From Akkermansia muciniphila (GTDB lineage Bacteria; Verrucomicrobiota; Verrucomicrobiia; Verrucomicrobiales; DEV007), in NCBI GenBank assembly GCA_945883495.1, contig CAMCXS010000021.1, forward strand, positions 1 to 64,000: a stretch of DNA of 64,000 nt, read 5' to 3'. Below the pieces are notes generated by a model. It worked only from the letters and a program-made list of their open reading frames with translations, searched no databases and was not told the origin of the DNA. The stretch's first letter is position 1. Every line of letters begins with the position of its first letter. Made by a program: the position numbers and the translations under genes. This document shows positions 49,342 to 55,079 of the stretch, piece by piece.

Positions 49342-50052
49342 ATGGGAAGAGCCTTCGAATACCGCCGTGCCGCCAAGGAGAAACGCTGGGACAAAATGTC
49401 CAAGGTGTTCCCGAAATTGATCCGTTCCATCACCCTGGCCGTGCGCGAGGGCGGGCCCGATCAGGCGACAAACTCGAAACTCCGCATCGCGATTCAAAAC
49501 GCCAAAGCGGAGAACATGCCCAAGGACAACATCGACGGCGCCATCAAACGCGCTTGCGCCAAGGATGCCGAGGACATCAGCGAGGTGAGCTACGAAGGCA
49601 AAGGCCCGCACGGAGTTCTTCTGTTCGTCGATTGCACCACGAACAACACGAACCGCACCGTGGCCAACCTCAAGACCATCTTCTCCAAGGGCGGTGGCAA
49701 ACTCGTGGAAAGCGGTTCCCTGGAATTCATGTTCCAGCGCAAGGCCCTCATCGAGTTTGAAGTTCCCGCCGGCCAAAACATGGAGGAGATCGAGCTCGCG
49801 CTCATCGACCACGGTCTGGAAGAGCTCGAAGTCAACGAAGGCCGCGCCTATGCGTACGCCGCCTTTGCCGACTACGGAAAAATCAGCCACGGCGTCGAAT
49901 CCCTCGGCATCGAGGCCTCCAAATCCAGCATCGTCCGCGTCCCGACTTCACCCGTCGAATTCTCCGAGGCGGAGCAAGAGGACATCGAAAAATTGATCGA
50001 CCGGATCGAGGACGACGACGACGTCCAAGCCGTGTTCACCAACATCGCCTGA
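49342..50052 (+). CDS. yebC: YebC/PmpR-family translation/regulatory protein
   Basis: A 236-residue cytoplasmic protein. The family start is truncated relative to most members: GRAFEYRRAAKEKRWDKMSKVF replaces the AGHSKW opening. The rest is canonical: AVREGGPDQATNSKLRIAIQNAK, MPKDNIDGAIKRA, YEGKGPHGVLLFVDCTTNN and VESGSLEFMF. YebC proteins were long called transcriptional regulators and are now also linked to ribosome rescue at polyproline stalls. It is only 19 bp upstream of the CnrY-like gene, so it may share a transcript with that metal-sensing module. Confidence 0.9.
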   Translation: MGRAFEYRRAAKEKRWDKMSKVFPKLIRSITLAVREGGPDQATNSKLRIAIQNAKAENMPKDNIDGAIKRACAKDAEDISEVSYEGKGPHGVLLFVDCTTNNTNRTVANLKTIFSKGGGKLVESGSLEFMFQRKALIEFEVPAGQNMEEIELALIDHGLEELEVNEGRAYAYAAFADYGKISHGVESLGIEASKSSIVRVPTSPVEFSEAEQEDIEKLIDRIEDDDDVQAVFTNIA

Positions 50053-50071: not shown

Positions 50072-50341
50072 ATGAATCAGGAGGAATTGGACGCGTTGCT
50101 TCGCCAGAGTTCCTCCACCGTTCCCTCGCGTCCGGAACGTGACTTGGTCAGCTCCGTGCTCGGGCGTCTCGGCCGCCGGGAGCGCTGGCAAGACGTCTGT
50201 GTCGTCCTCGGCGGCGCCAGCGTGATCGCGTTTTGCTTGGCCTTGGCGGTCGCCGCGAAGAACGGTCCGGAACCCGGAGCACCGCCCGCTCTCCGGCTCT
50301 TTCAGGCCCAGCCCGCCTCCCACCCGTTTGGCACGCCGTGA
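50072..50341 (+). CDS. CnrY-like single-helix anti-sigma protein
   Basis: An 89-residue protein with a cytoplasmic head (1-40), one membrane helix (about 43-62) and a short Pro-rich periplasmic tail. No domain is visible by sequence alone. Size and topology match CnrY (about 95 residues, one helix), which holds the ECF sigma factor CnrH at the membrane until CnrX senses metal. It is followed by a CnrX-like sensor with a 4-base overlap (GTGA), and then by an ECF sigma gene, so the Cnr order Y-X-H is reproduced. The anti-sigma call rests mainly on context. Confidence 0.68.
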   Translation: MNQEELDALLRQSSSTVPSRPERDLVSSVLGRLGRRERWQDVCVVLGGASVIAFCLALAVAAKNGPEPGAPPALRLFQAQPASHPFGTP

Positions 50342-50784
50342 AGCTCACCGTCTCCCCACGAACGCTCATTTGGAGCGTGGTCACCGTCCTCGTGGCCGTG
50401 ACGGCGGCCTGGCGGGTGGTCCGGCAGACTTCGGGGGAACCTTCCGAGGCGAGCTTTCACGATTGGCTCCACGCGAACTTGGCGATGAGCCCGGCGCAGC
50501 ACCTCGCCCTCAAACCCTACGAGGCGAGTTACGAGATCGAGCGCGAACGACTCCGCCGCGAGATTCGAGAAGCGGCAGCACACCTTGCCACGGCCATCGG
50601 TGCGGACGGAGCCAGGGCGGAAACCGTCGAATCCGCGTTGCAACGGCTCCAAACCGCGCAAGGTGAACTGCAGCGCGCCACGTTGCGTCACTTCTTCCTG
50701 ATGAAGGATCACCTCGATCCCGCCCAGGCCCAAAAACTGGTCCGTTGGACCCACGACAATTTGCTGGATGGATCTGCCCCTTAA
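50338..50784 (+). CDS. CnrX-like periplasmic metal sensor
   Basis: A 148-residue protein, the same length as CnrX, starting with GTG inside the previous stop. One N-terminal membrane helix (about 9-26) anchors a helical periplasmic sensor. His41 and His45 (FHDWLHANL), Glu62, His118 and Met122 (RHFFLM) fall at the positions of the Ni/Co ligands His42, His46, Glu63, His119 and Met123 of CnrX, offset by one. Motif LQRATL before His118 is also shared. Ligand numbering of CnrX is from established knowledge; the alignment is my own by eye. It should detect a transition metal and signal through the CnrY-like protein. Confidence 0.8.
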   Translation: MKLTVSPRTLIWSVVTVLVAVTAAWRVVRQTSGEPSEASFHDWLHANLAMSPAQHLALKPYEASYEIERERLRREIREAAAHLATAIGADGARAETVESALQRLQTAQGELQRATLRHFFLMKDHLDPAQAQKLVRWTHDNLLDGSAP

Positions 50785-51388
50785 CCTCGACTTAAGCCTC
50801 GAGCTCCCGGCCGCTCCGGAGGCTGAGGTCCTGGCCAGCGCCGCCCGGGAATCCCTCATCTCCGCCGCCCAAGCAGGCGATGCGAACGCCTTCCGCCAGT
50901 TGGTCACCCTTCACCAGGAGCCGATTCTACGCTTCTGCACCCATTGGCTGCGCGATGCCGGGGACGCTCAAGAAGCCGCCCAAGACACCTTCGTGCGCGC
51001 CTGGCAAGCCCTGGACCGCTTCGAAAACCGGGGCCGTTTCACCCATTGGCTCTACCGCATCGCCCTCAACGTTTGCCGGGATCGACACAAATCCAAAGCC
51101 TCCCGCCAACGTCGTGAAACCGCCTCGCTCGGAGCGGGCGAATCCCCCCTGGCCTGTCAACGTCCCACGCCTGACGAAGTCTTAGCCCGCTCCGGTGATT
51201 TGCAAAAATTGCAACGCGGCATCGCCCGCTTGCCGGAACGGCTCCGCGTCGTTCTCATCCTCTGCGCCCAAGAAGGTCTGTCCCACGAAGAATGCGCCGA
51301 AGTCTTGAACTGCTCGTCCCGCGCCGTCGAAGGACGCCTTTACCGCGCTCGCAAGGAACTGCTGGAGTGGTGGAATCGGGAGTGCTGA
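50768..51388 (+). CDS. ECF sigma factor, CnrH-like by position
   Basis: A 206-residue sigma-70 family protein. Region 2 runs from about 27 to 100, with FRQLVTLHQEPILRFC, DAQEAAQDTFVRAWQAL and FTHWLYRIALNVCRD. Region 4 (about 145-200) carries a helix-turn-helix: LPERLRVVLILCAQEGLSHEECAEVLNCS followed by VEGRLYRARKEL. It overlaps the sensor gene by 17 bp, which fixes the start. By position it is the CnrH member of the module and should drive the module itself and nearby metal-transport genes. A terminator-like structure follows. Confidence 0.88.
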   Translation: MDLPLNLDLSLELPAAPEAEVLASAARESLISAAQAGDANAFRQLVTLHQEPILRFCTHWLRDAGDAQEAAQDTFVRAWQALDRFENRGRFTHWLYRIALNVCRDRHKSKASRQRRETASLGAGESPLACQRPTPDEVLARSGDLQKLQRGIARLPERLRVVLILCAQEGLSHEECAEVLNCSSRAVEGRLYRARKELLEWWNREC

Positions 51389-51443
51389 GACTCGTCTCAG
51401 CCTTCCCGCCCGAAGCTTGCTGAGGGACGCTTCTCTTTTTTTT
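51384..51443 (+). terminator. Hairpins with T8 tract after the sigma gene
   Basis: A 7-bp stem with CTCG loop (51384-51401) covers the sigma stop codon. A second stem GAAGC/GCTTC (51412-51433) is followed by eight T at 51436-51443. This looks like a Rho-independent terminator separating the sigma module from the TonB receptor gene. Confidence 0.6.
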
Positions 51444-51603
51444 GCATTTCGAGGCCCGATGGGCCTAAAGCATCGCAATCATCCATCGCCTCCAGAACCT
51501 CCAGCTCCTAGGTAAGGGGTAGGACAAGTCGCACGCAGTCCCACGGAGAACCGATTCCAAAAAAATTTGTGGGTTGCCGCCAGGGACTCTCGTTTCCCTA
51601 GGT

Positions 51604-53631
51604 ATGCGCGCGCTCTGTTCCCTCCTGATCTGCCTTCCCCTTGTCCTCGGCGCCCAGGAGATTCCCGAGCTTGAGGCCGTCGTGGTCGAGGGCAAAGCGG
51701 AAAACCTCCTCGGCGAAGCCCAATCCGCCTCCCAAGGGCAATCGAGCGCCAAGGAACTCCAAGAACGCCCCTTCATCCGCCGCGGGGAACTCCTCGAAGT
51801 CGTCCCCGGCCTGATCGTGACCCAGCACAGCGGCGGCGGCAAAGCCAACCAGTACTTCCTCCGCGGCTTCAATCTCGATCACGGGACCGACTTCGGCATT
51901 TTCGTGGAGGGCATGCCGGTGAACATGCGTTCCCACGGGCATGGTCAAGGCTATGCGGACGTGAACTTCATCATCCCGGAGCTGGTGGAACAGCTCGATT
52001 ACGCCAAAGGGCCGTTCTACGCCGAACTCGGCGACTTCACGACCGCTGGCGCCGCCCGGTTCAACCTTTACCGTGTCCTGCCCCAAGGCATCGCCAGCTT
52101 CACCATCGGCGAAAACAATTTTTACCGCTCCCTCATCGCCGACTCGATCGTCACGGACAAAGGCGCTTTGACTCTGGCGTTGGAATACGGCTACTACGAC
52201 GGCCCCTGGGCCCGCCCCGATCAGTTGCAACGTTGGAACGGCTTGATCCGCTACTCCGTGGGCGATGAATTCGATTTCACCTCGCTCACCTTCATGGGCT
52301 ACGACTCGATGTGGGACGCCACCGACCAAGTCCCGCAACGCGCCATCCAGAGCGGCATCATCGATCGCTTCGGGAATCTCGATTCCACCGTCGGCGGCAC
52401 CTCGCACCGTTACAGCCTTTCCGTCGATCATCGGAGCGAAGACGCTTCCGGCGTGACCACTGCCTCCGCTTACGTGGGCACTTACCACCTCGATCTCTTC
52501 TCGAACTTCACCCTCTTCCTCGACAACCCGGTCCGCGGGGATCAGTTCAACCAGTTCGACGATCGCTGGTTCTCCGGAGCCAACATCCAGCGCACCTTGC
52601 AGGACCTAAGCCTCTTCGATCGCCCCACGGAACTGACCTTCGGCGCGCAGACCCAGCAAGATCTGATCGATGGACTGGCTCTGGGCAAAACCAGCGCTCG
52701 CGAAACCATCTCCACCGTGCGCCAAGACGATGTTTTCGAATCCAGCCTTGGCGCCTATGGCCAGGCCGAGGTCCGTTGGACGGATTGGATGCGCACCCAA
52801 ACCGGCCTGCGGGGAGATCTGTATCATTTCGACGTCCAGAGCAGCCTCGCGGCAAACTCCGGCAACGCCTGGGACACCATGGTCAGCCCCAAACTAGGCC
52901 TCATTCTCGGTCCTTGGAACGAAACCGAATTCTATCTCAACGGCGGCACCGGCTTCCACAGCAACGATGCCCGCGGCGTCACCACCACCATCGATCCCTC
53001 CACCGGCGACGCCGTCTCTCCCGTCCCGCCCCTGGTGCGCACCTACGGAGCCGAAACGGGAATCCGCACCCAACGCATTGAGAACCTCACCAGCACCCTG
53101 TCGCTCTGGTACCTGCAAAGCGATTCCGAACTCGTCTACGTCGGCGATGCCGGCACCAACGAACCGGGTGATGCCAGCGAGCGTTACGGAGTGGAGTGGT
53201 CCAACTATTGGCGCCCCAGCGACCTTCTGGCGATCGATACCGAACTCTCGGTGAGCGATGCGTACTTCATCCCCACGGGTGATCTCGTGGAAAACTCGGT
53301 GCCGGTGACCTTCTCGGGAGGCGTCACCCTAGGTGAGGCGACCGGGCCGTTCGGCACCTTGCGGGCCCGTTACTTCTCTCCCCGGCCCTTGAGCCCGGAC
53401 GGCAGCATCGAATCGAAAGACGCCTTCCAGATCAGCGCCCGGACCGGTTACCGCAAAGGTTCCTGGGAAGTCGCCCTCGAAGCCCTCAACCTCCTTGATG
53501 CCGACGACAACGACATCGAATACTTCTACACCTCCCGCCTCCAAGGAGAAGCCGCCTTGGGCGTCGACGATTTCCACGTCCACGCCGTAGAACCCCGCCA
53601 ACTCCGTCTAAGCTTCATCTACAAATGGTAA
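51604..53631 (+). CDS. TonB-dependent outer-membrane receptor, probably for a metal chelate
   Basis: A 675-residue receptor. The signal ends near residue 17 (VLGAQ), and ELEAVVVEGK serves as the TonB box. The plug carries RRGELLEVVPGLIVTQHSG, FLRGFNLDHGTDFGIFVEGM and VNFIIPELVEQLDY. The barrel ends with RLSFIYKW, the aromatic C-terminus needed for outer-membrane insertion. The HG-rich plug stretch (MRSHGHGQGYADV) is shared by a receptor family linked to metal uptake. I start at ATG 51604; an in-frame TTG lies earlier at 51574. It overlaps the binding-protein gene by 7 bp and follows the CnrYXH-like module. Confidence 0.83.
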   Translation: MRALCSLLICLPLVLGAQEIPELEAVVVEGKAENLLGEAQSASQGQSSAKELQERPFIRRGELLEVVPGLIVTQHSGGGKANQYFLRGFNLDHGTDFGIFVEGMPVNMRSHGHGQGYADVNFIIPELVEQLDYAKGPFYAELGDFTTAGAARFNLYRVLPQGIASFTIGENNFYRSLIADSIVTDKGALTLALEYGYYDGPWARPDQLQRWNGLIRYSVGDEFDFTSLTFMGYDSMWDATDQVPQRAIQSGIIDRFGNLDSTVGGTSHRYSLSVDHRSEDASGVTTASAYVGTYHLDLFSNFTLFLDNPVRGDQFNQFDDRWFSGANIQRTLQDLSLFDRPTELTFGAQTQQDLIDGLALGKTSARETISTVRQDDVFESSLGAYGQAEVRWTDWMRTQTGLRGDLYHFDVQSSLAANSGNAWDTMVSPKLGLILGPWNETEFYLNGGTGFHSNDARGVTTTIDPSTGDAVSPVPPLVRTYGAETGIRTQRIENLTSTLSLWYLQSDSELVYVGDAGTNEPGDASERYGVEWSNYWRPSDLLAIDTELSVSDAYFIPTGDLVENSVPVTFSGGVTLGEATGPFGTLRARYFSPRPLSPDGSIESKDAFQISARTGYRKGSWEVALEALNLLDADDNDIEYFYTSRLQGEAALGVDDFHVHAVEPRQLRLSFIYKW

Positions 53632-54548
53632 AGTTCCCATCCCCCATTCACCAAAACTCCACCTCTCCGATACTCCACCTCTCCGCGCTGGCCATCCTCG
53701 CCCTGGCCAGCACCGCGCTCGCCAAGCCCACGGTCCAGACCAGCAACTACCCGCTGGCCTACTTTGCCCAGCGCATCGGCGGAGACCAGATCGACGTCCA
53801 GTTCCTCGCGCCGGAGGACGGAGATCCCGCCTTCTGGGAGCCCTCGGACTCGGAAATCGCCAAACTTCAAGCCTCCGCCAAAATCTTCCTCAACGGCGCC
53901 ACCTATGAAAAGTGGCTCGCGCACGTGACCCTTCCGGATTCGCTCCTCGTCGATACCTCCGAAGGCTTCGCCAAACAGTTCATCGAAATCAAAGAGACCA
54001 CGACTCACAGTCACGGCAAAGAAGGCGCGCATTCCCACACCGGCACGGCCTTCACCACCTGGATCGATTTCTCCCAAGCCCGGCAACAGGCCGAAGCCAT
54101 CCTCCCCAGCCTGGTGCGCCTTCTCCCCGGCGCCCAGGCGGCCCTGGAGGCAAATGCCAAGGCCCTCTTCGCTGACCTGGACCAACTCGACGGCGACCTC
54201 GCCACCACCGCCAAGGCGATCGGCCCCCAACCACTCATCGCCTCCCACCCGGTGTATCACTACCTGGCCCGGCGCTACGCACTTCAAATCGAATCCGTCC
54301 TCTGGGAACCCGAAGTGATCCCGGACGCACCGGCCCTGAAATCCCTCCAAGACCTCCTCGCCAAGCACCCGGCCAAGTGGATGATCTGGGAAGGCGCGCC
54401 CGCAAAGGAATCCGTCGACAAACTCGAAGCCTTGGGACTCAAAAACGTCGTCTTCGATCCCTGCGGGAATCGCCCAGAGAAGGGAGATTGGCTGAGCGTG
54501 ATGCTAGAAAACGTCGCAAATCTCAAAGCGCTGGCGCCGAATCCGTAA
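53625..54548 (+). CDS. ZnuA-like metal-binding protein lacking two canonical ligands
   Basis: A 307-residue exported protein (signal core about residues 15-33) of the zinc/manganese ABC substrate-binding family. A His-rich loop (THSHGKEGAHSH, 127-138) is present and SHPVYHYLARRYAL keeps the third ligand. But the usual D-P-H of the first ligand is DPAFWEP (67-73), and the H-x-W of the second reads TTWID (144-148), so two histidines are missing. MIWEGAP and FDPCGN match the C-terminal site. It may bind metal through the loop or have another ligand set. No permease or ATPase genes follow; the gene overlaps the TonB receptor by 7 bp. Confidence 0.8.
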   Translation: MVKFPSPIHQNSTSPILHLSALAILALASTALAKPTVQTSNYPLAYFAQRIGGDQIDVQFLAPEDGDPAFWEPSDSEIAKLQASAKIFLNGATYEKWLAHVTLPDSLLVDTSEGFAKQFIEIKETTTHSHGKEGAHSHTGTAFTTWIDFSQARQQAEAILPSLVRLLPGAQAALEANAKALFADLDQLDGDLATTAKAIGPQPLIASHPVYHYLARRYALQIESVLWEPEVIPDAPALKSLQDLLAKHPAKWMIWEGAPAKESVDKLEALGLKNVVFDPCGNRPEKGDWLSVMLENVANLKALAPNP

Positions 54549-54826: not shown

Positions 54827-54900
54827 ACCTCCAGGCTAACTTGCGGGCCCCGGAGCCGAAACGTTACTCTCCGTTCCACTTCCGCACCCCGTGGATTGCC
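54827..54900. repeat. About 75-bp direct repeat, copy 2, abutting the 42-bp array
   Basis: This is the second copy of the 54553-54630 repeat, with scattered substitutions and one-base indels. Its end runs directly into the first tandem unit at 54896. Confidence 0.7.
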
Positions 54901-55079
54901 AAATGACAAAAGGTCATTTCTAGCCATCGAGAGGGTCTTGCCAAATGGCAAGAGGCCATTCCCAGCCGTCGAGAGGGTCTTGCCAAATGGCAAGAGGCCA
55001 TTTCCAGCCATCCAGGGGGTCTTGCCAAATGACATCGTGACGTTTCCGTCACATTCCGGCTCATTGCCATTTGGCAGCG
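54896..55079. repeat. 42-bp tandem array, four units and a partial fifth
   Basis: Units start at 54896, 54938, 54980, 55022 and 55064, exactly 42 apart. Units 1-3 share TTGCCAAATG, a 5-base loop and a closing stem. Unit 1 pairs AAATGAC with GTCATTT and units 2-3 pair AAATGGC with GCCATT, a compensatory change. Unit 4 is diverged after its first 12 bases; the fifth reads as the complement (TGCCATTTGGCA). Confidence 0.85.

Follow-up and report, generated by a model that had tools for sequence, protein, structure and literature searches.

The CnrYXH module is a textbook metal-resistance switch. Signalling by its sensor CnrX requires a methionine that is recruited by nickel and cobalt and not by zinc, and the bound metal frees the sigma factor (PMC7689651). 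In Cupriavidus metallidurans, transcription dependent on the extracytoplasmic function (ECF) sigma factor CnrH starts 24–25 bases before cnrY and cnrC (PMC9045368). Among uptake systems, a group of TonB-dependent receptors is predicted to import nickel or cobalt, according to Rodionov 2006 as cited in PMC2773004 and PMC7142613, and overexpression of icuA (META1_1076), a Methylobacterium receptor located via a query from this group, improved cobalt uptake (PMC2732905, PMC2773004). A search of the open-access literature found no description of a TonB receptor under the control of such a CnrX-type module. Here we analyse a 64,000-nucleotide stretch of DNA from Akkermansia muciniphila (contig CAMCXS010000021.1, positions 1 to 64,000 of the forward strand; hereafter the window), part of a draft genome of 6.46 Mb, in which a CnrYXH-type module lies upstream of such a receptor. 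The comparisons indicate that the module is probably wired to an operon for the import of nickel or cobalt, whatever the sign of the response.

The locus was confirmed as a CnrYXH-type module which encodes, in CnrY-X-H order and on the forward strand like all window genes named below, a CnrY-like membrane anti-sigma candidate of 89 residues (50072..50341), a CnrX-like periplasmic metal sensor of 148 residues with a GTG start (50338..50784) and a CnrH-like ECF sigma factor of 206 residues (50768..51388). The gene order, sizes and overlaps that a first-pass annotation had likened to CnrY-CnrX-CnrH were all reproduced from the open reading frames of the window, with overlaps of 4 bases between the anti-sigma and sensor genes and 17 bases between the sensor and sigma genes; pMOL28 supplied the proteins for comparison (CnrY 95, CnrX 148 and CnrH 191 residues). 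The sensor matched the Pfam family Metal_resist (E=5.6e-14) and, in a phmmer search of the PDB, NccX and CnrX (E about 1e-9). Global alignment with CnrX (Z=13, 143 residues, 31.5% identity) placed CnrX residues H42, H46, E63, H119 and M123 onto H41, H45, E62, H118 and M122 of the window sensor, which confirms the five ligands and the offset of one that the same annotation had read from the sequence. These ligands were invariant in 16/16 receptor-associated sensors of relatives, where they are among only thirteen invariant columns, and likewise in CnrX, NccX and sensors from copper contexts. Superposition on CnrX, proposed earlier as a check, also worked: for an AlphaFold model of the sensor (predicted local distance difference test score 88), CnrX structures in Ni-, Co- and Zn-bound form were the best matches at ranks 1–8 (Z 11.3–12.4), with NccX at Z 10.2 and the first other helical protein at 9.7. 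Because other helical proteins reach this last value, it is the sequence agreement that carries the identification. When 61 sensors were placed in a tree, those associated with the receptor grouped in a single clade (support 99/95), a result that shows coherence and not independent sampling, the members having been picked by profile score and receptor presence.

The sigma factor carries matches to Sigma70_r2 and Sigma70_r4_2 and shares 34% identity with CnrH (Z=18), which was also the best PDB match of its profile (E=8e-40), with other ECF factors narrowly behind. Similarity of the anti-sigma candidate to CnrY was weak (26% identity, Z=3.2), its profile had no CnrY match in the PDB, and a Pfam scan assigned it to no family and gave no FecR match. 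What makes it a candidate is its position, its size, a single hydrophobic segment and the recurrence, in 24/24 modules, of an open reading frame of about 90 residues at this place; PPxLxLF is shared near the C-terminus.

No gene of a resistance-nodulation-division (RND) pump was seen among the neighbours of the module in the window. The position of the target is taken by a TonB-dependent receptor gene followed by a ZnuA-family gene, in agreement with the first-pass annotation. The receptor (675 residues, 51604..53631) matched the Plug domain only (E=7.6e-13), no signalling domain being reported by the Pfam scan, and phmmer found no relative in the PDB. Full-length relatives (42–50%) on Proteobacterial plasmids adjoin nikR, as in Methylomagnum, a Comamonadaceae and Polymorphobacter, or have hoxN/hupN permease genes in the vicinity, as in Cupriavidus necator pHG1 and in Bradyrhizobium, the latter also with hydrogenase genes. 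A contig search using the receptor alignment yielded 80 named receptor loci. Eighteen of these, all Proteobacterial, had nikR nearby and the sensor in none, and in 11 Verrucomicrobiota loci the module lay directly upstream of the receptor and nikR was found in none, the NikR operator sequence not having been searched. Judged by its sequence, the receptor is a member of the predicted nickel/cobalt TonB-dependent group.

Sensor and receptor were also linked across genomes. Among 57 relatives, the receptor was found in 16/16 genomes with this sensor type as opposed to 7/41 others (Fisher p=4e-9, not corrected for relatedness of the genomes), the cut-off for the type having been chosen after a gap in E-values (8.8e-48 to 3.9e-24) was seen. 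A phylum sample of 289 genomes held the sensor type in four, the window genome included, with the receptor directly behind in 4/4, and in genomes with this sensor type the receptor mostly lay directly behind the sigma gene. The module of G015 adds exbB-exbD-tonB, and in G011 a single run comprises anti-sigma, sensor, sigma, exbB, exbD, tonB, receptor, an outer-membrane-like protein, znuA, znuC and znuB. The recurrence of neighbours, which the first-pass annotation had proposed as a check, was therefore borne out in part: the receptor stands beside the module in many genera, Haloferula sp. BvORR071 (L112) being a cultured carrier, but the ZnuA-like gene does so in the same genus and G035 only and is lineage-specific, canonical znuABC being found instead in G011. 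More distant sensors adjoin RND pumps, copAB or P-type ATPases.

Some further features of these loci were recorded. The outer-membrane-like protein between receptor and znuA in G011 (L063 12982-14277) has 431 residues, with some stretches acidic and others histidine-rich, and has no Pfam match; a relative of it is also present in L062. Another group of sensors, of intermediate score (about 112–129 bits, L278–L283), occurs in Verrucomicrobiota genomes lacking the receptor, one by copB and one by an RND permease. Beside the unlinked module of G018, two large related proteins are encoded (L060 9279-12798), the first with a caspase-like Peptidase_C14 and an FGE-sulfatase domain.

The gap between sigma and receptor genes in the window holds an ECF-type promoter, TGTGGGTT-N15-CGTT (51568..51594, forward strand), a predicted target of the sigma factor that ends 10 bases before the receptor ATG. 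Its general form, YRTGGGNT-N14/15-CGTY, is common to nearly all sigma-receptor gaps and stood upstream of 19/21 linked receptors. G035 has the ZnuA-like gene between sigma and receptor, with one copy of the motif ahead of the ZnuA-like gene and another ahead of the receptor. G011 also has two copies, one before the receptor and one before exbB that overlaps the start codon as listed. The divergent receptor of G056 has the motif on its own strand. Held-out relatives in which sensor and receptor are on different contigs (G014, G018 and G013) had the motif before the receptor in 3/3 cases. It was also seen in L118 and L127, loci without a sensor, from which a sensor elsewhere in these two genomes was predicted; a later sensor search of 28 genomes found this sensor type in those two only. 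The motif was likewise present in 3/3 additional genomes of the phylum that have the sensor. In total, the motif was present in 8/8 held-out cases with the sensor versus about 1/47 without it (0/26 named receptors, 0/7 order relatives and 1/14 further phylum genomes), the latter count having been cleared of repeats although a few genomes may still count twice. Before Proteobacterial receptors it was found in 1/40 cases, and in 1–3% of shuffled sequences. As about 1.3 occurrences are expected by chance in 64 kb, the weight of the motif lies in its position and conservation. It is very likely that the sigma factor controls the receptor.

That the receptor is a separate transcription target had been proposed on account of a terminator-like T8 structure between module and receptor. 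The proposal is supported by the receptor's own promoter and not by this hairpin, which is weak, having a 5-bp stem and a 12-nt loop and not being the minimum-energy fold. The structure was not among the hits of a terminator scan with a loop limit of 8, its spacer is missing from the two congeneric genomes, and the scan for sigma-70 promoters and terminators gave nothing exceeding chance. A search for an ECF promoter shared upstream of 50072 and 51604 had also been proposed; such a promoter is present before 51604 and before the receptors of relatives but absent before 50072. When the regions ahead of the anti-sigma gene in 24 modules were searched for dyads without a preset motif, nothing exceeded shuffles, with no sign of autoregulation. 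Scanning three whole genomes of the genus for the motif gave counts little above a reversed-pattern control (16 and 19 versus 11 and 12 in the window genome), and because of this no wider regulon can be read from them. Riboswitch searches of the window region and 19 related loci found none. In several genomes only 7–10 bases separate the -10 element from the receptor start (window 51594-51604; L053, L054 and L106), which suggests that the receptor mRNA is leaderless or nearly so in these genomes; in others, leaders of up to about 77 bases were seen.

The motif was compared with the promoters of Cupriavidus. GGGGGA-N14-CGTA is located upstream of cnrY and AGGGGA-N15-CGTA upstream of cnrC, both at the distance of the mapped starts. 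Within a 3.4-kb region, CGT at that offset with GGGG 15–17 bases before it was met at 2/6672 positions, which by coordinates are both mapped starts, in a comparison that was made after the motif had been seen and that involves few sites. The window promoter thus looks like a CnrH-type promoter located where cnrCp would be, with a receptor gene behind it in place of the efflux pump. On sphingomonad plasmids the same three genes lie before copAB (L092 8339-8970, L093 8355-8960), with TGAGGGG...CGTA directly behind the sigma gene; copper is thus likely to represent a third type of target for such modules.

The last gene of the system (53625..54548) overlaps the receptor stop by 7 bases and encodes a periplasmic protein of 307 residues that matches the ZnuA family (PF01297, E=1.3e-41). 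Of the three canonical histidine ligands, the first two are replaced (DPA, FTTW) in the window protein and its closer orthologues, with the third, H208, and a His-rich loop kept. In other genomes, orthologues often adjoin genes for a MacB-type permease and an ATPase. An ATP-binding cassette system composed of a ZnuA-family protein, a MacB/FtsX-type permease and an ATPase, partners not usually combined with a metal-binding protein, recurs in Verrucomicrobiota and also lies beside the nikR-linked Methylomagnum receptor (L074 9936-12052, L087, L089, L090, L091 and L097). In the window, a series of short direct repeats (type TTGCCAAATGGCAAGAGGCCATTCCCAGCCGTCGAGAGGGTC) lies 3' of the ZnuA-like gene (54890-55035). 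At the other end of the locus, yebC (49342..50052) ends 19 bases upstream of the module; it adjoins the module in the window genome and both congeneric genomes and is placed outside the system.

In the proposed mechanism, the anti-sigma protein would hold the sigma factor at the inner membrane until periplasmic nickel or cobalt, bound by the three histidines, one glutamate and one methionine of the sensor, releases it as in CnrX. From the promoter at 51568-51594 the sigma factor would then transcribe the receptor gene together with the ZnuA-like gene that overlaps it. The receptor, energised by TonB, would import nickel or cobalt as free ion or complex, and the ZnuA-like protein may capture the imported metal on the periplasmic side. 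Should the sign match that in Cupriavidus, the metal would induce its own import, like ferric citrate for Fec, but with sensing by a separate periplasmic protein in place of the receptor. Sigma control of metal import, as suggested in the first-pass annotation, gains support from the recurrence of the receptor, the receptor family and the shared promoter. Nickel or cobalt is quite likely to be the substrate, favoured on account of the receptor family and the signalling methionine, and induction by metal is slightly preferred over induction by starvation. The fuller proposal, that a CnrX-type sensor lets nickel or cobalt induce its own importer and that this arrangement arose from efflux modules when the genes behind the promoter were exchanged, is put forward as a serious but tentative possibility. 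Several observations weigh against the proposed wiring and nickel or cobalt import as a whole. The linked receptor in L062 lacks the motif and that in L061 has it with a mismatch; sensors beside copper genes carry the same five ligands, which consequently leave the choice of metal undecided; urease, NiFe hydrogenase and CbiC, looked for in the window genome as clues to its metal requirement, all gave no match; and an efflux-type sensor switching on import would follow an unusual logic.

Import systems are usually induced by starvation, following the logic of NikR and Zur, which counts for an inverted sign, whereby the apo-sensor frees the sigma factor and the importer is made when metal is scarce. 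The receptor-associated sensors, being a clade of their own, could have changed sign in this way. However, they have kept all five ligands including the methionine through which metal releases the sigma factor in CnrX (PMC7689651), and substrate-induced import is known for Fec-type systems; we hold the inverted sign to be credible, if doubtful. The same wiring might alternatively serve zinc or copper, either as a zinc-scavenging pair of receptor and ZnuA-like protein or as a copper response such as the sphingomonad relatives may show. This is unlikely given the ties of the receptor family to nikR and hoxN, the invariant signalling methionine, with Zn-bound CnrX not signalling (PMC7689651), and the two canonical histidines missing from the window ZnuA-like protein, even though a ZnuA-family gene is the partner here, G011 carries znuABC and copper-context sensors share the invariant ligands.

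To our knowledge all characterised CnrYXH systems drive efflux, and the locus could accordingly be an ordinary resistance module whose sigma factor acts on a pump elsewhere, the receptor being a bystander. Distant sensors of the phylum do adjoin RND pumps and P-type ATPases, and the genome-wide motif scan is compatible with further targets. Against this, the promoter precedes the receptor even where the module is unlinked but is absent from nearly all genomes without the sensor, and no genome examined had this sensor type without the receptor, which renders a bystander role very improbable. Still less probable is cell-surface signalling of the FecIRA type with the receptor itself as transducer: an ECF sigma factor does adjoin a TonB receptor, but the receptor has the Plug domain with no signalling domain reported, no FecR match was found, and a CnrX-type sensor is present.

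The locus can be compared with several known systems. With CnrYXH of C. metallidurans pMOL28, and with NccYXH, it shares gene order, overlaps, sizes, sensor fold, the five ligands, the type of sigma factor and a promoter of the GGG-N-CGT type in the gap behind the sigma gene. It differs in that a TonB receptor takes the place of the cnrCBA efflux pump behind this promoter, in the -35/-10 letters (TGGGGT...CGTT as compared to AGGGGA...CGTA in Cupriavidus) and in that the motif is not repeated ahead of the anti-sigma gene, cnrYp being CnrH-dependent (PMC9045368). Throughout this clade, what is known as a resistance switch is paired with a putative TonB importer whose gene has a conserved promoter, and the same metal-sensing chemistry is apparently rewirable from export to import. 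The receptor resembles the nickel/cobalt receptors (Bll6948, Daro_3944, Daro_1684 and the related icuA) through its full-length likeness of 42–50% to members by nikR, hoxN/hupN and hydrogenase genes, yet is tied to a CnrYXH-type module and promoter instead of nikR, and no riboswitch was found. The analysis thereby supplies a regulator and a concrete promoter for a receptor group tied to NikR in Proteobacteria. The ZnuA-like protein has the family sequence, one canonical histidine, the late glutamate and the His-rich loop in common with ZnuA, and differs in the two replaced histidines and in that its window neighbours include neither a permease nor an ATPase gene. As in FecIRA, an ECF sigma factor and a membrane anti-sigma protein would control a TonB receptor gene, whereas the metal sensor here is a separate periplasmic protein, the receptor has no signalling domain and FecR is not matched; a scarce metal is thus proposed to be sensed in the periplasm without a transducing receptor. 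If true, a known efflux switch would here be used in reverse, and Fec signalling would have a counterpart that works without a transducer.

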